Below are positions 1-18,705 of a stretch of DNA of 33,858 nucleotides, piece by piece. A model generated the notes under the pieces. That model was not told the origin of the DNA and did not search any database. It was given only the letters and a program-made list of their open reading frames with translations. Each line of letters opens with the position of its first letter. The stretch's first letter is position 1. Made by a program: the position numbers and the translations under genes. The stretch lies in IMG/VR virus record IMGVR_UViG_3300033146_000813, positions 1 to 33,858 of that record, one strand, 5' to 3'. This stretch comes from a virus.

Positions 1-350
1 CACTACAAGGAGAACTAATAGGTCCTCGTATTCAAGCTAACCATGAAAAAGTAAATGATTTAGAAATTCACATATATGATATATGGGATATTAAAAACCA
101 ACAATATTTAACACCTTCTCAGCGTGTAATATTTTTAGGAGTGTTTAATCTAAATATTCCTCATGTACCTATAATTAATTCTTCTATAAAAGTATTTAAA
201 ACCTGTAAAAATTTCGAAGAATTTCAAGAACGTGTTACAGGTGAATCATTTATGCCGGGAACTGTAAGTGAAGGTAGAGTATATAAAACATTAGACGGTA
301 AAATGTCTTTTAAATTAATAAGTAATGAATACCTTTTAAAGGAAAAATAA
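1..350 (+). CDS. ATP-dependent RNA ligase, C-terminal part (cut by left edge)
   Basis: The frame is open from base 3 to the stop at 348-350, so the true start lies outside the window; the internal GTG at 141 is not a credible start. The visible part carries late nucleotidyltransferase motifs of the RNA_ligase family: a GELIGPRIQ segment (motif IIIa region), EGRVYK (motif IV) and SFKLISN (motif V), ending shortly after in YLLKEK. The N-terminal motif I lysine is not in the window. Family members seal 3'-OH/5'-phosphate RNA breaks through an enzyme-AMP intermediate. The stop overlaps the ATG of the next gene (TAATG), so the two are translationally coupled. The neighbours (a metallophosphatase and RtcB) fit an RNA-repair role. 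The subfamily (Rnl2-like or DRB0094-like) is uncertain. Confidence 0.78.
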   Translation, partial: LQGELIGPRIQANHEKVNDLEIHIYDIWDIKNQQYLTPSQRVIFLGVFNLNIPHVPIINSSIKVFKTCKNFEEFQERVTGESFMPGTVSEGRVYKTLDGKMSFKLISNEYLLKEK

Positions 351-1008
351 TGCAAGTATTTGTAATAGGGGATATCCACGGAGAACTAAAACAAGAATAA
401 TTTTAGTTGGAGATCTTATAGATAGAGGCCCTAACTCAGAAGATGTTATTGATTTTGTAAGAAGTCATAATATAGAATGTGTTAAAGGTAATCATGAAGC
501 TATGTTAGAAGAATGTATTCCTTACATTGCAGCAAAAGATACTTGGGCAATAAGTGGTTCTGATTGGGGACTTAACGGAGGACACGATGTTATGTCTCAA
601 TATTCTTCTAAAAAAAAATTACTTAATGATGCATTATGGGTAAAAAAACTCCCTTATTATATTAAAACAGGTGTACGTAATAAAGATAATTTAGAACTAT
701 TAGTATCTCATGCATGGATAAGTAGGTACATTGACATTAAAAAAGCATCGGAAACATTTATGTTTGTATGGGATAGAAAACAACCTAAACAATTTAAAGA
801 CACACAATTTTATAATATCTATGGACATACTCCTACAAGCTACTTAAGTAAAGGACCTGATGTAGAACCTCCAAAACCTAGGTGGGACAATAATAGTGTT
901 AATATTGATACTGGATGTACTTACGCCTTAAAAGGTAGAGGATGGCTTACAGGAGTATTCTTTCCTTCATTAGAAGTAAAACAAATTAAAAGGATTGATC
1001 ATGAGTAA
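350..1008 (+). pseudogene. Metallophosphatase (lambda phosphatase/ApaH-like) with broken reading frame
   Basis: Translation from ATG 350 gives the first metal motif, FVIGDIHGELK, but stops at 398-400. The rest of the enzyme continues in another frame: ILVGDLIDRGP (about 401-433), VKGNHEAM, an SHAW histidine segment and YGHTP, running to a stop at 1006-1008. Family members have about 20 residues between GDIHG and the GDLVDRG block. Here almost none remain, so the sequence looks like an internal deletion of a length not divisible by three rather than a single-base slip. The intact family dephosphorylates Ser/Thr proteins, dinucleotides or RNA 2',3'-ends. Any product from the internal ATG at 502 would lack three metal ligands. 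A recent inactivation or an assembly error are both possible. It lies between two RNA ligases and NAMPT. Confidence 0.75.
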
Positions 1009-2434
1009 ATCTCCAATATATTATGGCGATAGTTATAAGTATGGACATTCAAAACAGTACCCACAAAATATGGTTGATATGTATGATTACATGTCAAGTA
1101 GAGGGGGTAAATACCCTGCTACTTTATTTGTTGGTGCACAAGGATTAATTAAACAATATCTAACAACTCCTGTTACAATTCAAGATGTAGAAAAAATATC
1201 TAAAAGAGCTGCTCTACATGGCATCCCTTTTGACAAAGAAGGATGGCTTTATATTGTAAGTGCTCATAAAGGATTTCTACCTATTGAAATTAAAGCAGTA
1301 CCAGAAGGTACTTTAATACCAACAGGTAATGTACTTATGACAATAGTTTCAACAGACAGTCAAGTACCTTGGGTGGTAGGATTTGTTGAAACATTACTTA
1401 TGAAAATATGGTACCCAACAACCATAGCAACTAAATCTTATTACGTTAAACAAATGCTACTTAAATATGGTAGTAAAGATTGGGCTAAATTTGCATATCA
1501 TGCCTTTGGAGATAGAGCTTGTACTTCTCCTGAATCGGCGGATATCGCCGGTTTTGCACATTTATCCGCGGGATTCTATGGTACAGATAACTTCGGATCT
1601 TTAGACTATTGTGAGCAATTTTATAATGTATCTGAAGAAGAACCTGCAGGTTATTCGGTATATGCTACAGAACATTCTACTACTACCTCACATACTAAAA
1701 AAGAAGAGGAAGCTTTTGTTTATAAACAACTACTAGATAATCCTGATAAGCCTATTATGTCTTTTGTAGCAGATAGTTACGATGTATACAATTTTACTAA
1801 TTTCTGTACTGCTTCTAATTCTCGTATTAGAAAGCTTATAGAAAGTAGGCCTCATCAAAAACTAGTACTTCGTCCAGATAGTGGAGACCCTATAGAAGTT
1901 TTAGAGGATATGCTAGATATCATGGAAGTCAATAAAGTAGACGTAATTCCTGGTAATAAAATACTATTTAAAGATTTTAGTATCCTATGGGGTGATGGTA
2001 TAACACCAGAAACTATAGAAGAAATTTTAGAGTATTTTACAAGCAAAGGTTTTGCTGCTGAAAATTTTGTATTTGGAAGTGGTGGAGATCTTATGCAAAA
2101 GGTAGATAGAGATACACAAAAATTTGCCATTAAATGTAGTAATATAACTATTGATGAAGGAAGTTCAATTGATACCCCTTATCAAAGGCCTATATGGGAT
2201 CCTTATTATGTAGAAGTACCTGTGTTTAAAGATCCAATTACAGATCCCGGTAAGAAGTCTTTAAAAGGTAAAATAGAAACTTACATAACACAAGATGGAA
2301 AATTTATTCTACAAGATATTACACAAGAAGTAGAAAAATATAATAGACCTATAATGAAAACCATATTTAAAAATGGTAAAACATTAAATGAAACTTCATT
2401 AAAACAAATAAGGAATACACATGAAAATAAGTAG
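1001..2434 (+). CDS. nadV: Nicotinamide phosphoribosyltransferase (NAMPT/NadV)
   Basis: Converts nicotinamide and PRPP to nicotinamide mononucleotide, the salvage entry to NAD. The 477-aa length matches the family. Visible signatures are ESADIAGFAHL near 179-189, the EHST catalytic-histidine segment near 225, VADSYDVYNF near 257, LRPDSGDPIEVL near 290 (the substrate-binding Arg/Asp pair) and FGSGGDLMQKVDRD near 358. I chose ATG 1001 rather than the in-frame TTG at 995 because AAAAGG lies at proper spacing upstream; the start overlaps the preceding gene by 8 bases. Phage copies are often paired with a PRPP synthetase, which may lie outside the window. A role in refilling NAD during infection or in countering NAD-depleting defence is inferred. 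Codons near 1540-1575 are unusually GC-rich for this genome. Confidence 0.93.
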   Translation: MSKSPIYYGDSYKYGHSKQYPQNMVDMYDYMSSRGGKYPATLFVGAQGLIKQYLTTPVTIQDVEKISKRAALHGIPFDKEGWLYIVSAHKGFLPIEIKAVPEGTLIPTGNVLMTIVSTDSQVPWVVGFVETLLMKIWYPTTIATKSYYVKQMLLKYGSKDWAKFAYHAFGDRACTSPESADIAGFAHLSAGFYGTDNFGSLDYCEQFYNVSEEEPAGYSVYATEHSTTTSHTKKEEEAFVYKQLLDNPDKPIMSFVADSYDVYNFTNFCTASNSRIRKLIESRPHQKLVLRPDSGDPIEVLEDMLDIMEVNKVDVIPGNKILFKDFSILWGDGITPETIEEILEYFTSKGFAAENFVFGSGGDLMQKVDRDTQKFAIKCSNITIDEGSSIDTPYQRPIWDPYYVEVPVFKDPITDPGKKSLKGKIETYITQDGKFILQDITQEVEKYNRPIMKTIFKNGKTLNETSLKQIRNTHENK

Positions 2435-3671
2435 TGATACTCCTTATAAAATATTTGGAGAACACATAGAAGAAAAAGCACTAGAACAATTTAATAATTG
2501 TTTAAATATGGATGGATGTGTTCAAGGCGCATTAATGGCAGATGCTCATACAGGCTATGTAGCACCTATAGGCTCCGTTTTAAAGTTCAAAGGCAAAGTT
2601 AGTCCTGCCTTAGTAGGTTATGACATAGGATGTGGTGTAGCATGCCTAGAATTAGATGTACATTATTCTAAAATAGATTTAAAAAAATTAAAAGAAGATA
2701 TATTAAAAAAAATTCCTTTAGGATTTAATGTACATAGTAAACCTCAAGATTCTTCTTCTTTAAATTTTACAGGAACCTCTACAAAACTACAAGATCTTTT
2801 CTCATTAAAAGGAAGAAAAGCATTAGGAACATTAGGAGGGGGTAACCATTTCATTGAAATAGGGTACTTAAAATCAAATGAAAATCTAGCTATAGTAATT
2901 CATTCAGGGTCTAGAGGCTTTGGACATGGCGTGGCTACATACTACATGCAAGAAGCTGCTAGTAATTATGCACATTTTAATTGGCATAATAAAGAATTAG
3001 AGATAGCAGAAGATTTTTATTTAAGAAATAAAAAATTCAAAGAAGCCAGAGAAAAAAAATATTATGAAGCATTACACAAATATATAGCAAAACAAAAAGA
3101 ACTTTATTTTAAATCTCAAAATATAGAAGGTAACTATGTATTAGATTTAAATTCTAAAGCAGGAAAACAATATATGATTGATCAACAATTCTGTTTAGAG
3201 TATGCTTTATTAAATAGAAAATTAATGATTAATAATATTAAAGAAAGTATTAAAACACAAATTAAATGTGAAGATTTAAATTTTATAAATAGAAATCATA
3301 ACCATGCAGAAATCAAAGATGGTTTTGTAATTCATCGCAAGGGTGCAACACATGCTGAAAAAGGTATGCTTGGCGTTATCCCTGGTAACATGAAAGATGG
3401 CTGTTTTATTGTAAAAGGCTTAGGTAATAATGAATCTATTAGCTCCTCTTCACATGGAGCAGGTAGAGTGCTATCTAGAGCACAAGCACGTAAAACATTA
3501 GATGCAGAAAAATTTAATAAAAGTATGGAAGGTATAATTACTAATCATACTAACGAACACTTAGACGAAGCCCCAAAAGCTTATAAAGATATTTATAAAG
3601 TAATGGAACTTCAAAAAGATCTTGTAACAGTAGTTACTCAAATAACACCTATACTAAATATAAAAGGATAA
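2421..3671 (+). CDS. rtcB: RtcB-type RNA ligase
   Basis: GTP-dependent ligase joining 2',3'-cyclic-phosphate or 3'-phosphate RNA ends to 5'-OH ends, typical of tRNA repair. All hallmark blocks are present in order: DAHTGYVAPIG at 41-51, GYDIGCG at 66-72 with the metal-binding Cys, LGTLGGGNHFIEIG near 135-148, HSGSRGFGHG at 161-170, NHNHAE near 292, IHRKGATHAEKG near 304 and SSHGAGRVLSRAQA near 343. The last includes the guanylated histidine, about residue 345. The 416 aa are within the range for short phage RtcB proteins. The start overlaps nadV by 14 bases. The gene ends in AAA GGA TAA, which doubles as the ribosome binding site of the next gene. The presence of a second, ATP-type ligase upstream suggests dedicated repair of host nuclease damage. 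Confidence 0.95.
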   Translation: MKISSDTPYKIFGEHIEEKALEQFNNCLNMDGCVQGALMADAHTGYVAPIGSVLKFKGKVSPALVGYDIGCGVACLELDVHYSKIDLKKLKEDILKKIPLGFNVHSKPQDSSSLNFTGTSTKLQDLFSLKGRKALGTLGGGNHFIEIGYLKSNENLAIVIHSGSRGFGHGVATYYMQEAASNYAHFNWHNKELEIAEDFYLRNKKFKEAREKKYYEALHKYIAKQKELYFKSQNIEGNYVLDLNSKAGKQYMIDQQFCLEYALLNRKLMINNIKESIKTQIKCEDLNFINRNHNHAEIKDGFVIHRKGATHAEKGMLGVIPGNMKDGCFIVKGLGNNESISSSSHGAGRVLSRAQARKTLDAEKFNKSMEGIITNHTNEHLDEAPKAYKDIYKVMELQKDLVTVVTQITPILNIKG

Positions 3672-3674
3672 AAA

Positions 3675-3965
3675 ATGAGAACACCAATTAAAAACAGAAG
3701 TAAATACCCAGAAGTATTCAAAACTGCGGCACTAGAAGAACTAAAAACTTCTTCAAAAACAATGGCAACTATTGCTAGAGAAAGAAATTTTAATCAAAAC
3801 ACTTTAAGAACATGGGCAATTGATGCAGGTATTCACACATCAACTCCTCGTAAAAAAACTAAAGCAAGTACACGAACTGCTACAGCAGTAAAAGAAGAAG
3901 TGCCTATTGTACAAGATGAAAATACTATTTATTATAAAGGTAAACTCTTTACAAGTAGAAGATAG
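3675..3965 (+). CDS. Small helix-turn-helix protein
   Basis: A 96-aa basic protein. Residues about 10-52 (FKTAALEELKTSSKTMATIA and onwards to TLRTWAIDAG) fit the HTH of transposase OrfA/Psq-type proteins, with the recognition helix near NQNTLRTWAIDAG. This is followed by a Lys/Arg/Thr-rich stretch (about 57-70) and a short C-terminal segment YYKGKLFTSRR. No transposase catalytic domain is nearby and no terminal repeats flank it, so a phage regulator or DNA-binding accessory protein is more likely than an IS remnant. Its start is four bases after the rtcB stop, with AAAGGA overlapping that stop. It is the last gene before a terminator-like hairpin and the structured intergenic element, which it could conceivably bind; that is speculation. 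Confidence 0.6.
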   Translation: MRTPIKNRSKYPEVFKTAALEELKTSSKTMATIARERNFNQNTLRTWAIDAGIHTSTPRKKTKASTRTATAVKEEVPIVQDENTIYYKGKLFTSRR

Positions 3966-3972
3966 TTATAGC

Positions 3973-4000
3973 ACAATAGCTAGATAAATTTAGCTATTGT
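3973..4000 (+). terminator. Intrinsic-terminator-like hairpin after the HTH gene
   Basis: ACAATAGCTA at 3973-3982 is perfectly complementary to TAGCTATTGT at 3991-4000, giving a 10-bp stem with an 8-base loop. It is followed by TTATTTATTA. It sits 8 bases after the stop of the HTH gene. The stem is AT-rich and the T-run is interrupted, so termination could be partial. The T-rich tail also forms the first arm of the long inverted repeat that follows, so pairing of that arm could compete with or modulate termination. Confidence 0.6.
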
Positions 4001-4023
4001 TTATTTATTAGTAGTGCTATGTA
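4001..4023. repeat. Left arm of 23-bp inverted repeat
   Basis: Reverse complement of 4194-4216 with one substitution (T at 4018 faces G at 4199, still pairable in RNA). The arms are separated by 170 bases. No matching target-site duplication is evident outside the arms, which argues against a simple MITE. Confidence 0.85.
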
Positions 4024-4193
4024 GCATTACTATTTAACAAAAGAATAGAGACGTATCGTCCTTGTTTACTCTCTTTTGTTGTTATATAGTAATTTATACT
4101 AAATTACTATATGTATCCCGGGTGCACAGGGAATTCCGGAATCCTCCCAGATCCGACCAGTGTTATTCTAATGGATGCTAAACAAAAAAAAAG

Positions 4194-4216
4194 TACATGG
4201 CACTACTAATAAATAA
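4194..4216. repeat. Right arm of 23-bp inverted repeat
   Basis: Partner of 4001-4023. It follows an A-rich stretch (4180-4192) and ends 17 bases before the ATG at 4234, so it may lie in the leader of the downstream mRNA and could affect its translation. Confidence 0.85.
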
Positions 4217-4233
4217 AATATTAAAGAAAGAAA

Positions 4234-5319
4234 ATGACTTATCAAGAAAATATAAAAGAATTATCAGAAAATAAAATAGTACAAAAAGAAATACAAGCAG
4301 TTTTAAAATTACATAATACTGTTCCTTATGGTAGAGAAGGCAGTAAAATGCTTTTAAAAGCCATAGAAGACACTAAAGGAGTAGTTAATACATACTTAAT
4401 TAACTATTTTCATGAAAGAAGAAACTCTCACAATTTAGTATATGCAGATTATCTAATTGTCAGAGATAAAGGTAAAAAAAACTTAAGTGAAATGGGAATA
4501 AATAAATTTACTCCTTTTTATCAAGATTTACCCGATAATATTTATAAAGCATTAATGTTAAAATCAGATACTTATAAAGAGTCTAAAAGAAGAGTAGAAG
4601 AAAAATTTTTAAACTCTGCAAAAAATCTTAAAGTCAATGCATTTTCTTATAATATATTTAAAGCCTGGATAGAACGACAGAAAAAAATAACAAGTGCAGA
4701 TGCATTAAGATATATAAAAGAATTATGTAAAATTAAATTAAACACAAATGCAGAAAAAGAAATATATGATAAATATATTAAACTATTATGGGACTACGCA
4801 CCTACTAAATCTATAAGCTTATCAGAATATTTAAAACTTATAGGTGCTACAAGAATTAAAAATGAAGCACATATAGAATATCCTTTTGTAGAGGTAACTA
4901 ATATAAAAAATTTACAAAAAGCTCCTATAACTACTAAATGGAACACACAAGTAGCTTTTGCATTTAACGGTATTAAAACATACGCTAGATTTAATAATAT
5001 AGGATTACTATCTGATAGTTTATATATTACAGAAAGGGATGTGCATGATTTTATAACAACAGTACCTAAAAAAAATAAACTCGCATCTTTCGATGTTTAT
5101 TTTATATTAGATAAAATTAAAATCTTTGAACATTTAAAACTACATAATAAAAATAAATGCCCTTACTATAATTTAGCAAGTCAGCAATTAATAGCAGAAT
5201 TAGAAGATCCTCGTAATAAAAGAGCTGTTCAGGAAGTTTTTAAAACTTTAGACAGTACAATAGAACAAGCAGAAAAAAATACATTTGAAATCATCAAAAA
5301 AATTAAAGGAAACATATGA
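4234..5319 (+). CDS. Unrecognised protein heading the AAA+/VWA cluster
   Basis: 361 aa, not recognised. It is Lys-rich and looks mostly alpha-helical, with segments such as KIVQKEIQAVLKLHN near the N-terminus and a C-terminal amphipathic stretch, FKTLDSTIEQAEKNTFEI. No signal peptide, membrane segment, P-loop or cysteine cluster is visible. It is preceded by AAAGAAAGAAA rather than a clear AAGGA. The stop overlaps the start of the AAA+ ATPase gene (ATGA), indicating coupled translation and probably a shared function with that ATPase, as a partner, adaptor or substrate. It is the first gene downstream of the structured element, which may lie in its leader. Confidence 0.8.
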   Translation: MTYQENIKELSENKIVQKEIQAVLKLHNTVPYGREGSKMLLKAIEDTKGVVNTYLINYFHERRNSHNLVYADYLIVRDKGKKNLSEMGINKFTPFYQDLPDNIYKALMLKSDTYKESKRRVEEKFLNSAKNLKVNAFSYNIFKAWIERQKKITSADALRYIKELCKIKLNTNAEKEIYDKYIKLLWDYAPTKSISLSEYLKLIGATRIKNEAHIEYPFVEVTNIKNLQKAPITTKWNTQVAFAFNGIKTYARFNNIGLLSDSLYITERDVHDFITTVPKKNKLASFDVYFILDKIKIFEHLKLHNKNKCPYYNLASQQLIAELEDPRNKRAVQEVFKTLDSTIEQAEKNTFEIIKKIKGNI

Positions 5320-6509
5320 ACAAAACTATAATAAAAATACTAACAACAAACATTGAAGGACAACTAAAAGGCGCAGATATAGGTGGAGGAATTTGTATAG
5401 CTGGAGCACCTGGTATTGGTAAAACTTACCATATGTATGCAATTGCTAAAGACTTAAATATGCATATGATTCAAGTCAGTATTCCAGAAGTAAGTACTGA
5501 AAATCTTTCAGGTATCCCAGAATTTATTCCTGCTCCTCATATGGATAAATACTCTACTATAGATACTAGTGGTTCATTAGGTACAAAGTGGTCAGTACCT
5601 CAAATTATTGAAACAGCTAATAGATTAGCAGAAGATCCTGATAAAAATGGTTGTATCTTATTTATAGATGATTTACATAGAGTTAATATGGCTGTTGCTC
5701 CTTATTTGTACGGTCTATTAGGAGAACGTAAACTAGGAGCATTTACATTAGGAGATAAAGTAGCACTAATGGGTGCTATGAACGATTCTGATGAAGCAGG
5801 CTTCTCTGGAGTGGATTCTCCAATTAAAGACAGACTAGGAATCTTACCTGTAGCATTTGACTTTGATTACTGGTACAAACAATTCGGTAAAAAATTACAT
5901 TTCTATATTTCTTCTTTCTTAAAAACACACGCTAGTTATGTACAAGAAGAAGAAAGTACTATGATAGAACAATTCGGTACACCTAGATCATGGACACATT
6001 TAGCTAATGAATTTAATTTATATGACTTACCGTTTATTCAAGAACATGCTACATTATTAGCTAAACAAAAAGTATCTAAAGCTGCAGCAAATGAGTTAAG
6101 TAAACATATAGCATATATAGAGGCTATTGATTTTAGTGATTTAATTGATAGAAAAATTAAAATTAAAATTGAAAATTTAAAGCCTATAGACCAAATTTTA
6201 TATGCTTATATGATTAACTATGTAGAAACTGTAGAAGATGCTAAGTATGTTATGGAACTTATTGATAGTAATATTAAATCTTCAAACTTTGTAGGATTTA
6301 TTGTAGGAGAACTTTATACTAAATTTCTTATTAAACAAGATGGAGCTAAACTAACAAAAGGTGTAGAAGTGCTTACATCTAAAATTCTACAAATAGATTA
6401 TGAAGGTACAGAACCGCTAACAGCTAAAGAAAAAACTTTATACAATAAGTTGACATTTGAAAATCAAACCACTATATTAACTATTGCGTCAGAATTTATA
6501 AACGAATAA
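5316..6509 (+). CDS. MoxR/CobS-like AAA+ ATPase
   Basis: 397-aa ATPase with GAPGIGKT (Walker A, 30-37), ILFIDDLHR (Walker B, 114-122), a GAMND sensor-1 segment (153-157) and an arginine-finger-type DSPIKDRLG (167-175). The core occupies about residues 20-260, followed by a helical C-terminal part. MoxR/CobS-type ATPases normally act with a VWA-domain protein to remodel or load metal onto a client protein; the VWA protein encoded at 7227-8687 is the obvious partner. The start forms an ATGA overlap with the preceding gene. Phages of the N4 group carry a comparable ATPase/VWA pair whose role is poorly known. The target here is unknown. Confidence 0.88.
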   Translation: MNKTIIKILTTNIEGQLKGADIGGGICIAGAPGIGKTYHMYAIAKDLNMHMIQVSIPEVSTENLSGIPEFIPAPHMDKYSTIDTSGSLGTKWSVPQIIETANRLAEDPDKNGCILFIDDLHRVNMAVAPYLYGLLGERKLGAFTLGDKVALMGAMNDSDEAGFSGVDSPIKDRLGILPVAFDFDYWYKQFGKKLHFYISSFLKTHASYVQEEESTMIEQFGTPRSWTHLANEFNLYDLPFIQEHATLLAKQKVSKAAANELSKHIAYIEAIDFSDLIDRKIKIKIENLKPIDQILYAYMINYVETVEDAKYVMELIDSNIKSSNFVGFIVGELYTKFLIKQDGAKLTKGVEVLTSKILQIDYEGTEPLTAKEKTLYNKLTFENQTTILTIASEFINE

Positions 6510-7226: not shown

Positions 7227-8687
7227 ATGGAAACTACATTTATAAAAGAAACTGAAAACTTTATATACAAAGAAATCGCAAAAAATACTAATAAATTATT
7301 TGGCAAAAATAAGACAGCTTCTTTAAGTACAGGTATATTTTTAAAGTTGCCTATTGAAATTAGACTAGAAAAAGTAAAAGAACCTTTACCAAGGCTCTAT
7401 AAAGATTTAAAAACTTTCTTTCCTACTTATTTTAGTGCACATGTAGAATATAAAAATTCTGCAACAGTATACTTTACTTTTTTCTACCATTCAGAAAAAG
7501 AATTAAAAGCTTTAACTAGAGATATGCATTATAGAGGAATGTTTTATACATTTACTTACTTACATGAATTACAACACATTTTAAGAAAACATAACACAGT
7601 TGCATATAAAACTCTTATGGAGAATATTGCAAAGAACACTAGTAACCCACACGAACTAGCAAATGTAGCAGAAGATTATGCTATAAACTACTCGCTTAAA
7701 GATTTATTTATATTAGCTAAAATGAAATCACAATGGCTAGAAATTGAAGCCTGTGTTTTATACAATAGTACATACCATACAGAAAAATTATCAGATATAG
7801 AAATCTTAAAAAAATTAGTAGAAGATTTACCTACAATTAGCGCCCAAGAAGAAAATGGCTGGATGAAAATTGAAGTAGAAGGTAAAAGCTTCAAAGAAAA
7901 AATTCAAGAAGATGCTGCCGAAGGAGACGCTGAAGGCGAAGATACAAGCAAAGGTACAGGCGGTAAAGATAAAACATCAACAACAATAGATGATTCAGAT
8001 ATCTCTAAATCAGATTTAGCTGATGCTATTCAAGATATTATTACAAATAGTACTAAAGGAACTGCTGCCGGAGACTTGATAGAAGAACTTTTTAATTCTA
8101 TAAAAGTTGAAACAGGATGGTTTAAAAAGATTAAAGCAGCCTTTAAACGTCAAGTTTATTATAAAACTCACGATTACTCTACTAGCTGGTCTAACATGAA
8201 TAATACATATAGAAGAATATATAAAAGCCCTAAAAAGTTTTTCTTTGATAATAAAATAGATATAATTTTATCAGTAGATCATAGTGGTTCTATGGCTACA
8301 ACAGATTTACAAAAATTATTATATTTAATAGAATCTGAAAGTACTAAAATTAGTAAACTTACAGTATTGATACATGATACACGAGTTGTAAAAACATTTA
8401 CAATAACAGATGATTATGATATAACAAACTCTCCTGATTTCATAGAAGCACTAGCTACAAGACATGTGGTAGGTGGAACTAGTCATGACGATGTGTTTAG
8501 AACAATAGAAGAAATGAAAATAGTAGATAGAGATAAAGTAATATATATGAGCTTTAGTGATAATCAAAGTGATATTGAACAAACTATAGGTAAGTATCCT
8601 ATTATGCAAAAATTAACAAAGTATTGGATATGTGCAGGGATAAATAAACCAGTTAAAACATCTGGTACAAATATATTTATGGTGTAG
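7227..8687 (+). CDS. VWA protein with N-terminal metallopeptidase-like domain (DUF2201 type)
   Basis: 486 aa in two parts. The N-terminal half contains YLHELQHILRKH (about 112-122), a zincin HExxH with a further His, and NVAEDYAINYSL (about 147-157), which could supply the third ligand. An acidic Gly/Glu/Asp/Lys linker spans about 224-262. The C-terminal half is a VWA-like domain with the MIDAS motif SVDHSGSM (349-356), a VGGTSHDDVF threonine loop (about 415-424) and VIYMSFSDNQSD near 438. The order matches the putative metallopeptidase plus VWA-like architecture of DUF2201 proteins. Such proteins partner with MoxR-type ATPases, encoded here at 5316-6509. The zinc site could be catalytic or structural. 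It is probably cytoplasmic, since there is no signal peptide. Confidence 0.85.
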   Translation: METTFIKETENFIYKEIAKNTNKLFGKNKTASLSTGIFLKLPIEIRLEKVKEPLPRLYKDLKTFFPTYFSAHVEYKNSATVYFTFFYHSEKELKALTRDMHYRGMFYTFTYLHELQHILRKHNTVAYKTLMENIAKNTSNPHELANVAEDYAINYSLKDLFILAKMKSQWLEIEACVLYNSTYHTEKLSDIEILKKLVEDLPTISAQEENGWMKIEVEGKSFKEKIQEDAAEGDAEGEDTSKGTGGKDKTSTTIDDSDISKSDLADAIQDIITNSTKGTAAGDLIEELFNSIKVETGWFKKIKAAFKRQVYYKTHDYSTSWSNMNNTYRRIYKSPKKFFFDNKIDIILSVDHSGSMATTDLQKLLYLIESESTKISKLTVLIHDTRVVKTFTITDDYDITNSPDFIEALATRHVVGGTSHDDVFRTIEEMKIVDRDKVIYMSFSDNQSDIEQTIGKYPIMQKLTKYWICAGINKPVKTSGTNIFMV

Positions 8688-11944: not shown

Positions 11945-13100
11945 AACATATAATAAAGAAATTGAAAATTGGCAAGACCTTTTAAAAGAATTTGCTGAAG
12001 GTGCCAGTTTAACAGAACTTTCAAAAAAGTATAACATTCATAAATCAAGTTTAAAGTATAAACTAGCTAAAGCTGGAAAAACAAAAGATTCTAGATTTAA
12101 AGGAAAAGTAGATATTTTAAGAGATGCTCCTGAAGGACAATTTATTAAAAAAGTATCTTCTTTATTGGATGCTGATGGTAATGTTAAAATACAATGGGTC
12201 AGTACAAATAAAAAAGATGAAGATAGATATAAAGCATTTAAACAAGCTATCGAAAGTGTTACTACTCAAATTACACCTGCCTCTCCACGTAAACATACTA
12301 AACATACTAATAAAGATATGATGACAGTTTACTCAATAGGAGATGCACATATTGGGTTACTTGCACACCACTTAGAAACTGGTGAAGATCACGATCTAAA
12401 AATAGCAGAAGAAGATTTATTAAAAGCTATGGGAATGTTAGTTACACAATCATTACCTACACAAACTGCATTTATTGTAGATGTAGGAGATTTCTTTCAT
12501 GCAGATAATGCTTTAAATGAAACAGCAGCACATGGTAATAAGTTAGATGTGGACGGTAGATACGCTAAAGTACTGGATATAGGTTTAAACCTAACAGTTA
12601 AATTGGTTGAAGAAGCATTAACAAAACATAAGAATGTAATTTGGAGAAGTGCTATTGGTAACCACAATGAACATAGTGCTATTATGATGTCTGCATTTTT
12701 AAAAGCTTGGTTTAAAGATGAGCCTCGTGTAACAATTGCAGATACTCCCAACATGTTTTACTACCATACATTTGGAAAAAATTTAATAGGTGTAACACAT
12801 GGGCATACTGTAAAAGCAGAAAAACTAGGTGAAGTTATGTCTGTTGACTGTAAAAGTAAATGGAGTGAAACTAACCATCGTTACTGGTATACAGGACATA
12901 TACACCATCAATCGGTTAAAGAGTTTACTAACTGTATAGTAGAAACATTTAACACATTGGCAGGTAAAGATGCTTGGCATAGTTCTTATGGTTATAGAAG
13001 TAAACAGTCTATGAAAGCTATAACACTCCATAAAGAATTTGGAGAAGTTAGTAGAAACACTGTAACTCTTGCTATGGTTAGAAATACAAAGAGTAAATAA
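11937..13100 (+). CDS. Metallophosphoesterase with N-terminal HTH
   Basis: 387 aa. Residues about 12-48 form a resolvase/Psq-like HTH (ASLTELSKKYNIHKSSLKYK). The calcineurin-like phosphoesterase domain spans about 128-385 with SIGDAHIGL (136-138 metal ligands), DVGDFFHAD (184-190), IGNHNEH (240-246), THGHT (287-291) and YTGHIHHQS (318-326), so the di-metal centre is complete. Proteins of this type are common in phage replication regions and may be nucleases or phosphodiesterases of the Mre11 superfamily; the substrate is unknown. The start overlaps the previous gene, and the stop overlaps the next start (TAATG). Unlike the phosphatase at 350-1008, this gene is intact. Confidence 0.87.
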   Translation: MGKTYNKEIENWQDLLKEFAEGASLTELSKKYNIHKSSLKYKLAKAGKTKDSRFKGKVDILRDAPEGQFIKKVSSLLDADGNVKIQWVSTNKKDEDRYKAFKQAIESVTTQITPASPRKHTKHTNKDMMTVYSIGDAHIGLLAHHLETGEDHDLKIAEEDLLKAMGMLVTQSLPTQTAFIVDVGDFFHADNALNETAAHGNKLDVDGRYAKVLDIGLNLTVKLVEEALTKHKNVIWRSAIGNHNEHSAIMMSAFLKAWFKDEPRVTIADTPNMFYYHTFGKNLIGVTHGHTVKAEKLGEVMSVDCKSKWSETNHRYWYTGHIHHQSVKEFTNCIVETFNTLAGKDAWHSSYGYRSKQSMKAITLHKEFGEVSRNTVTLAMVRNTKSK

Positions 13101-13354
13101 TGTATATGTTTATACTCATGTTCGGTTTACAGCTAGCCTTTCAACTAACTAGAACATTAGGAACTAGAGTTATTTCTAAAGACCACTTAACTTTAACTAT
13201 TATTACAACAATAATAATACAAGCCTTATGGCTTGTAACAACAGCTATGGGAGTGCACGCAGCTTTTGAACTAGACACTGCTCAAATTGTTGCATATATG
13301 TTAGGTGGTACTATGGGAGCATACATAGCTATGAAAATAAAATTTTTAAAATAA
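13100..13354 (+). CDS. Small inner-membrane protein, three predicted helices
   Basis: 84 aa with three hydrophobic segments: FILMFGLQLAFQLTRTLG (about 4-21), LTIITTIIIQALWLVTTAM (about 32-50) and IVAYMLGGTMGAYIAM (about 63-78). A short basic end KIKFLK predicts an internal C-terminus. No holin-like dual-start or lysis neighbour is present, so a lysis role is not supported. The start overlaps the stop of the metallophosphoesterase gene (TAATG). It may tether a replication component to the membrane, but that is only a guess from its position. Confidence 0.7.
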   Translation: MYMFILMFGLQLAFQLTRTLGTRVISKDHLTLTIITTIIIQALWLVTTAMGVHAAFELDTAQIVAYMLGGTMGAYIAMKIKFLK

Positions 13355-13362
13355 GGAATTAG

Positions 13363-14769
13363 ATGTTAAAACTATATAGACAAAGTCTAGAAGAAGCTGG
13401 ATGCTTTAAAGATACTTTTCCAAAAGCATTTGAAGCAACAGCTAAAGCAATTCCTGGCAATATTCCTTATAGAATGAAAGTATTAATGGCCGCTACAGAA
13501 TTAATAGTATATGCAGGGCATTTACGAAAATCTATAGACTGGCATGGTACTAGTATACCGGTTAATATAATTTCATTCTTAATTGGAAAAAGTGGATCAG
13601 GAAAAGGAATGTCTATTAAAAACATAAATAATGTATTAATAGATGGATATAAAAAGATAGATGAACATAGAGAAACTCAAGCAAGAGTAGTAGCGATTGA
13701 AAATGCAGAAGCAGATGGTAAGAAAGCAAAAGAATGGCGTAAATACTATTCAAAGCCTAGAAGCCTCAAAGCAGGCATTTCTACCTTACAAGGTATGATG
13801 AAACACCTTGCTACTCTAGAAGCCGGTAAACTCGGTGCTGGATACCTTTATGTGGATGAAATAGGATCTGAGTTAGCAAGTAATAAAGATCTTGCAGAAA
13901 ATATAGTAGCATTAGCAGTAGGGTATGATACAGGAGAAATAGCTCCTAAATTACTTAAAGATGATACTAATCAATTAGATCCTATAAAAAATTTACCTTA
14001 CTCTGCTTTATTGTTTGGGTCACCTGCAAATATCATATACGATGAAGTAGTTAAAAAGAAATTTAAAGAAGAATTTGATACAAAATTAAGTAGAAGGTCT
14101 GTTTTTGTATTTATTAAAGATAAACCTAAAATTCCTGTATTCAAATCTACAGCAGAATCTAGAGAATTTTTTAGAAAAGAATTCGAAGAAGCAGAAGAAA
14201 CTATAACTAAATTAAAACCTTATTTTACTTCTCTAGTAGATTCCACAACTCACGTACCTCTAAAGGTTAGTAGAGAAGTAGAAGATTTATTTAGTGATTA
14301 TAAAGGGTATAATGAGTGGTTCGCAGAAGAAATGTCTAAACAGTATCCAACGTCTATTTTACATAGACAACACCTACAATGGAAAAGTTTAAAAATTGCT
14401 GGAGCACTAGCCATTTTAAACGGGGATAATGAAATAAATAAAGGACATTTTGTAGAAGCAGTAAATTTTTCTGAAATATATGCAAAAGATATGCAAGAAT
14501 TTGAAAAAGAATTAAGTAAAGAACCTTATGAAATATTTTGTGATTATATGAAAACAATATCTCAAAAAGGTTACGCTAGTATATCTGTCCATAAACTTAA
14601 AAAAATGGGATTCATAAAAGGAGCAGGAGCAATACAAAATAAAATAATTGAACTTGTCTCTTTGGCTAAAACATATGACGATGTTAATACTTACGAAGTA
14701 TCTAATAATTATATTCATTTTTATGAAGGAGTGGAAGAACTTACTACAGAACGAGATGAATTATTATAA
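13363..14769 (+). CDS. Phage DUF3987-like P-loop ATPase, probable replicative helicase
   Basis: 468 aa. A helical N-terminus is followed by a RecA/AAA-type core with IGKSGSGKG (Walker A, 74-82), LYVDEIGSEL (Walker B, about 162-171), LLFGSPANI (sensor-like, about 217-224) and KLSRRSVFVF (candidate arginine finger, about 241-250). The C-terminal ~100 residues look like a small winged-helix-type module (VHKLKKMGFIKGAGAIQNKI). The adjacent primase and upstream polymerase point to a replication role, most likely DNA unwinding or loading. DUF3987-type assignment is from pattern recall, and helicase activity is inferred. Confidence 0.75.
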   Translation: MLKLYRQSLEEAGCFKDTFPKAFEATAKAIPGNIPYRMKVLMAATELIVYAGHLRKSIDWHGTSIPVNIISFLIGKSGSGKGMSIKNINNVLIDGYKKIDEHRETQARVVAIENAEADGKKAKEWRKYYSKPRSLKAGISTLQGMMKHLATLEAGKLGAGYLYVDEIGSELASNKDLAENIVALAVGYDTGEIAPKLLKDDTNQLDPIKNLPYSALLFGSPANIIYDEVVKKKFKEEFDTKLSRRSVFVFIKDKPKIPVFKSTAESREFFRKEFEEAEETITKLKPYFTSLVDSTTHVPLKVSREVEDLFSDYKGYNEWFAEEMSKQYPTSILHRQHLQWKSLKIAGALAILNGDNEINKGHFVEAVNFSEIYAKDMQEFEKELSKEPYEIFCDYMKTISQKGYASISVHKLKKMGFIKGAGAIQNKIIELVSLAKTYDDVNTYEVSNNYIHFYEGVEELTTERDELL

Positions 14770-18461: not shown

Positions 18462-18498
18462 GCTGTAGGATTCAATCACTAAATTAAAAGGAAAATAC

Positions 18499-18678
18499 AT
18501 GGAAAAATTGACACAAATTAAAATGGATATGGATATTGTTAGCGGAATGATCGAAAATTATGACAATAAGCCTACAAAAGTAATGTCAGCTAGAATACGT
18601 AAAGTTCTAGGAAGTGTTAAAAATCAAGTAACTGCAGTAAGAGCAGCACTTGTGGCAGCGGATAAAGCAGGATATTAA
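18499..18678 (+). CDS. 59-aa basic helical protein, histone H1-like
   Basis: The ORF is short but has AAAAGGAAAATAC before ATG 18499 and fills the gap between the SSB and nrdA genes. The C-terminal part (SARIRKVLGSVKNQVTAVRA) is a basic amphipathic helix. The layout, an acidic N-terminal helix followed by a PTK-x-x-S-x-R-x-RK segment, resembles the small histone H1/Hc1-like proteins seen in many phages. No cysteines or membrane segments. DNA compaction or nucleoid binding is a guess from resemblance. Confidence 0.6.
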   Translation: MEKLTQIKMDMDIVSGMIENYDNKPTKVMSARIRKVLGSVKNQVTAVRAALVAADKAGY

Positions 18679-18705
18679 TTAACTTAAAGCGATTAAAGGA
18701 AATCA

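Follow-up and report, generated by a model that had tools for sequence, protein, structure and literature searches.

A stem-closed intergenic element ahead of the AAA+/VWA gene group of an N4-like phage

What is the intergenic stretch, closed by a long inverted repeat, that stands before the AAA+/VWA gene group of an N4-like phage, and would it act as RNA or as DNA? The sequence analysed is IMG/VR record IMGVR_UViG_3300033146_000813, classed as linear, whose 33,858 nt are referred to throughout as the window. An initial annotation, made from the letters and their open reading frames, had singled out positions 4001-4216 as a structured noncoding RNA of no recognised class, lying in the only sizeable gap of the first 27 kb. 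The window carries an N4-like gene set comprising the AAA+ gene (phrog_1297), the VWA gene (phrog_1314), a family A DNA polymerase, an exonuclease (phrog_704), a primase and a helicase (phrog_1967), together with a weak match to virion RNA polymerase (E 1.7e-5). In gene order, its AAA+ and VWA genes are the counterparts of gp24 and gp25 of phage N4.

The gap and its genomic surroundings

The gap extends from the stop of a small HTH gene (3965) to the ATG of a gene for a 361-aa protein (4234), and at 268 nt (3966-4233) it is the largest true gap, in agreement with the earlier description: positions 351-501 read as part of a broken phosphatase gene and 18462-18705 contains a 59-aa ORF. The element was also rightly placed ahead of the AAA+/VWA cluster, the 361-aa gene, the AAA+ gene and the VWA gene following it in that order on the + strand (Table 1). 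The searches gave no family match for the 361-aa protein, and its predicted structures, which were of low confidence, were left out of the analysis.

Relatives were sought through the genes for the 361-aa protein, AAA+, VWA and exonuclease, the last of these searches yielding 67 loci. Only two IMG/VR phages, G001 (locus L005, 90.8 kb, AAA+ 65% identical) and G002 (locus L012, 102 kb, AAA+ 69% identical), retain the order HTH gene, gap, 361-aa-like gene, AAA+, VWA; in G020 the AAA+ and VWA genes are present with other neighbours and no gap. The HTH protein shares 33-34% identity with the products of the same-position genes in L005 and L012, orthologues that stand before the corresponding gap there as well.

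Several other features of these genomes were recorded. The NinI-like phosphatase gene (window 350-1008) reads MQVFVIGDIHGELKQE up to a stop and then continues in another frame (VGDLIDRGPNSEDVI...), with about 20 residues apparently absent between the short inverted arms AACTAAAA/TTTTAGTT; the gene may be broken or the assembly faulty here. A reading frame that runs in from the left edge of the window (3-350) terminates in SEGRVYKTLDGKMSFKLISNEYLLKEK; by eye this is similar to the C-terminal end of an RNA ligase, and the phage may carry two RNA ligases, RtcB (2421-3671) being the other. The genes for nicotinamide phosphoribosyltransferase (NAMPT) and the RtcB RNA ligase are neighbours (window 995-3671); an RtcB C-terminus, 60% identical, also lies at the contig end of G002, and RtcB was not detected in G001. 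In G002, group I introns (Rfam RF00028) at L012 3506-3878 and 9641-9937 interrupt the AAA+ gene and, judged by position, the DNA polymerase gene. DNA polymerase A is apparently split in G001, with the 3'-5' exonuclease part (L005 5277-6068) upstream of the gap and the polymerase part (13012-14445) downstream.

Table 1. Features in and around the element (window coordinates unless a locus is named)
Feature	Position	Strand	Remarks
Small HTH_Tnp_1-type protein	3675..3965	+	96 aa; Pfam HTH_Tnp_1, 6.4e-8
Terminator-like hairpin	3973..4000	+	12 pairs, 4-nt loop, T-rich tail; adjoins left arm; z -4.1
Left arm of closing stem	4000..4023	+	
Alternative local hairpin	4009..4032	+	10 pairs (one G.U), -11.5 kcal/mol; competes for left arm
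Interior hairpin with nested small stem-loop	about 4035..4081	+	
Interior perfect hairpin	4084..4112	+	13 bp, 3-nt loop; z -5.2
GC-rich core	4113..4178	+	Weak closure by GTATCC/GGATGC; no other robust fold
Right arm of closing stem	4194..4217	+	
Putative ribosome-binding segment and ATG of 361-aa gene	4222..4236	+	Purine-rich, by sequence; begins 5 nt past right arm
361-aa protein	4234..5319	+	Homologues at equivalent place in L005 and L012
AAA+ ATPase (phrog_1297)	5316..6509	+	
VWA/DUF2201-type protein (phrog_1314)	7227..8687	+	
Orthologous 21-25-bp stem of relatives	L010 7028-7142	-	
Orthologous 21-25-bp stem of relatives	L015 13346-13466	-	

Fold and internal anatomy of the element

The inverted repeat had been given as 23 bp and proved to be one base longer on each side, pairing 4000-4023 with 4194-4217 over 24 bp; its sole imperfection, T4018.G4199, pairs as G.U on the + strand. 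When the whole window was shuffled 60 times with its dinucleotide composition preserved, the longest arm to arise was 17 bp (at most one mismatch, span below 300). Folded as RNA, 4001-4216 has a minimum free energy of -66.9 kcal/mol, with z values of -7.1 for the + strand and -6.5 for the - strand. In a scan of 469 segments of 216 nt the element had both the lowest energy and the lowest z (-9.5, the next being -5.0), these z values being rough because only 16 shuffles were made per segment. The best fold without the closing stem reaches -50.1 kcal/mol, the stem contributing about 17 kcal/mol.

Within this stem the nested hairpins described earlier are present, the perfect one having 13 bp rather than 12, and by count 4117-4162 is indeed GC-rich, at 63% G+C vs 31% for the window. 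On its own, 4112-4180 folds no better than shuffles (z +0.24), and the stability of the element therefore comes from the closing stem and the two hairpins. The longest ORF within the core has 32 codons and was dismissed as a gene, no convincing homologue being found. A branched fold closed by a stem, with a core of this composition in a genome of 31% G+C and this short coding capacity, is compatible with a noncoding RNA that acts in trans as a discrete molecule of about 170-220 nt, in which the long stem would protect or release the molecule, the hairpins would form a scaffold and the weakly paired core would be the functional part. The shuffle-like folding of that core argues against such an RNA, as does the lack of a promoter or terminator of its own: a sigma-70 scan found promoter-like sites no more numerous than in shuffles, and the terminator-like hairpin sits 5' of the element. 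Its absence from the collections searched and from the equivalent gap of both relatives, described below, weighs in the same direction, and a discrete RNA is considered doubtful. In a separate search, promoter-like motifs common to gene starts showed no enrichment.

Two hairpins that the initial annotation did not contain bear on how the region would fold. One is the terminator-like hairpin at 3973-4000 (terminator-like sites in 3600-4500 numbered 2, vs 0.2 in shuffles); the other, at 4009-4032, is a rival for the left arm. When folds of the growing transcript are followed, the 4009-4032 hairpin appears first and is displaced by the closing stem only once the RNA reaches about 4200. A left arm common to two mutually exclusive folds, in a multi-branched domain whose P1-like closing stem lies beside a start codon, recalls a riboswitch or attenuator, that is, a ligand- or protein-sensing leader toggling between the local hairpin and the closing stem. 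However, neither fold pairs the putative ribosome-binding segment, Rfam gives nothing above threshold and chance-level matches only at E up to 10, and the bias of 17 kcal/mol leaves little room for a reversible switch, which makes this reading very improbable.

Wherever pairing is imperfect in the four near-perfect helices inspected (closing stem, terminator-like hairpin, local hairpin and the base of the hairpin at 4035-4081), the + strand has a G.U pair, which fits the expectation for + strand RNA, the evidence being weak because transitions alone would fairly often yield the same. Folding with DNA parameters places the 216-nt stretch as far from its shuffles as RNA folding does (z -7.05), and repeats of a different kind run through the arms. 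The segment 4198-4227, comprising the 3' arm and the bases that follow, repeats 4022-4051 directly in diverged form (70% over 30 columns, p 0.0015), and the motif TAGYAYTACTA occurs in three copies, inverted and direct (4010-4020, 4023-4033 and 4198-4208), two of them as direct repeats. These copies could be operator half-sites in a DNA-level control region, perhaps for the adjacent HTH protein, whose gene lies directly upstream in all three phages; the long inverted repeat would then be a by-product of site duplication. Yet a near-exact 24-bp arm far exceeds what repetition of an 11-bp half-site would call for, the gaps of the relatives do not share the motif, and the interior hairpins and consistent + strand G.U imperfections are left unexplained. 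An operator region is on this evidence unlikely.

Searches for homologues and the equivalent gap in relatives

That the element belongs to no recognised RNA class was upheld by a search with the Rfam 15 covariance models, in which no family attained its gathering score; the best sub-threshold match was snoZ162, at 20.4 bits vs 45. ARAGORN found no tRNA or tmRNA. Searches of phages, plasmids, E. coli, IMG/VR and GTDB brought up no DNA homologue: blastn in phages returned insignificant matches only (E about 8 among those listed) and nothing in plasmids and E. coli, a 37-mer of the core had zero matches in IMG/VR, and a GTDB search with a 20-mer gave none. Shorter words did return candidates. A 15-mer matched 18 IMG/VR loci, which were rejected as homologues and ascribed to chance because their flanks are all unlike the element, and the one GTDB match of a 19-mer, again with unlike flanks, was discarded as chance.

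The 216-nt element is missing from the equivalent gap of G001 and G002, which measures 136 and 158 nt, respectively, vs 268 nt in the window, and mutual alignment of the three gaps is no better than that of shuffles. Each gap nevertheless holds a strong, terminator-like hairpin (12 bp in the window, 13 in G001 and 11 in G002), and between this hairpin and the next ATG lies a second stem; it is therefore the arrangement that is conserved at this site and not the sequence.

Near-perfect terminal inverted repeats and a gap length that varies among phages could also reflect insertion of a small MITE-like mobile element with a TA target duplication. TA does occur at both sides, which is trivial because the AT-rich arms are symmetric, and nothing beyond this symmetric TA marks a target duplication. 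Against an insertion, the element occurs once in the genome record, the DNA searches described above revealed no copy elsewhere, and the repeats do not enclose the HTH gene, which is conserved in the relatives although they lack the element. No transposon end or origin was recognised; terminal repeats of the MITE or transposon kind are present, but in a single copy, with none elsewhere and no informative target duplication. We regard an insertion as quite improbable.

Long stems at proposed operon boundaries

G001 and G002 carry other inverted repeats, of 25 and 21 bp (at most one mismatch), in orthologous position behind a small gene starting MAFN (loci L010 and L015; Table 1); each genome also has a paralogue of this MAFN-type gene. 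These are the only stems of such length in the two relatives. In 923 kb of loci from more distant relatives there was one inverted repeat of at least 19 bp (L045, intergenic), and such stems are therefore not background. The stems resemble the element in their length, in the hairpin that precedes each, in ending 20-27 nt ahead of the SD/ATG (AAAGGAAATT[AC]ATG) and in belonging to the same phage clade; they differ in locus, in sequence and in their simple loop of about 30-50 nt. A covariance model of the stem found nothing in the window, and the MAFN-site stem, at a different locus, is not homologous to the element. In the aligned stem 4 of 21 pairs are compensatory, 2 are one-sided (GC to GU, + strand) and none is broken, which, with two sequences only, is suggestive but not conclusive and points to selection acting in this clade on a long leader stem as RNA.

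The best-supported reading of the element is accordingly that of an RNA-level operon-boundary and leader structure on the + strand, better supported than a discrete RNA, a DNA operator, an insertion or a switch. It is put forward tentatively, with a probability a little short of even. An inverted repeat and a fold far above chance speak for it, as does the order of hairpin and second stem common to the three gaps, and action at the RNA level is favoured because the four near-perfect helices inspected have only + strand G.U imperfections and the relatives' comparable stem is compensated. The earlier proposal of a noncoding RNA is thus favoured as regards the RNA level and is weakened as regards a discrete molecule, since the closing stem stops 17 nt short of the start codon of the 361-aa gene, with a purine-rich segment in between, as would befit a leader. 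Against the operon-boundary reading, the element has no homologue in the collections searched and the covarying stem of the relatives lies at another, non-homologous locus; promoter-like sites do not exceed shuffles, and the DNA-level fold is as extreme as that of RNA.

As an operon-boundary leader, the element would form part of a + strand transcript, downstream of the RtcB/HTH genes and upstream of the 361-aa/AAA+/VWA group. The hairpin at 3973-4000 would end or attenuate the upstream unit, and right after it the local hairpin at 4009-4032 would fold first. Once the 3' arm had been made, this hairpin would be exchanged for the closing stem of 22-24 bp around the two hairpins and the GC-rich core. 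The long duplex would most likely determine where the downstream mRNA begins and how stable it is, either as an RNase III-type cleavage site or as a protective 5' structure, and control of the cutting or protection of the mRNA of the downstream gene group is the most likely role of the element. RNase III targets have a minimum size of 22 nt (PMC5371410), and the element offers an intergenic duplex of 24 bp with one G.U. RNase III processing sites are found in phage operons, in T7 and T3 mRNAs and in lambda (cited in PMC5371410), which the element resembles in placing a duplex of 22 bp or more between the genes of a putatively polycistronic phage transcript; it differs in its far more extensive interior (170 nt, comprising two hairpins and the GC-rich core) and in that its cleavage is predicted.

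Two further systems invite comparison. The DNA-hairpin promoters of the N4 virion RNA polymerase (Schitoviridae) are brought to mind by the N4-like gene set and by the hairpins with 3-nt loops inside the element. N4-type promoters are short hairpins of 4-7 bp, accompanied in N4 by a GC-rich heptamer, and occur only in the early region, on the left of the genome (PMC4496689, PMC3715699), whereas the stems of the element are 13-24 bp, AT-rich and genome-internal; compared by inspection with these descriptions, the element does not show the 4-7-bp stem with a 3-nt purine-centred loop and a GC-rich heptamer, upstream of early genes, of such a promoter. Y RNA and YrlA-type RNAs near RtcB likewise have their ends paired in a long stem with an RtcB gene nearby, but the element has no Rfam match and no TROVE domain was found in the neighbouring genes. 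There is a slender chance that the element represents a new class of phage noncoding RNA, in which a closing stem would surround two hairpins and a core, rich in GC, that serves for recognition, and which might form a ribonucleoprotein with the 361-aa, AAA+ and VWA proteins or be circularised by the neighbouring RtcB after cleavage of the closing stem.

Should the operon-boundary reading be correct, this phage group would use long RNA stems as recurrent punctuation before operon start codons, one instance of which, in two relatives, would display compensatory selection. It would also provide a testable handle on the partitioning of transcripts in uncultured N4-like phages and on the poorly understood AAA+/VWA group. 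The element is an orphan, and its immediate reach is therefore small.

The repeat in L045 closes an intergenic element of its own (13480-13652, span 173, 19-bp arm) in a distantly related phage of 57% G+C. It had no match in Rfam or in the phage database, and its arm motif, ATGACCATACATG, occurs a second time just downstream.
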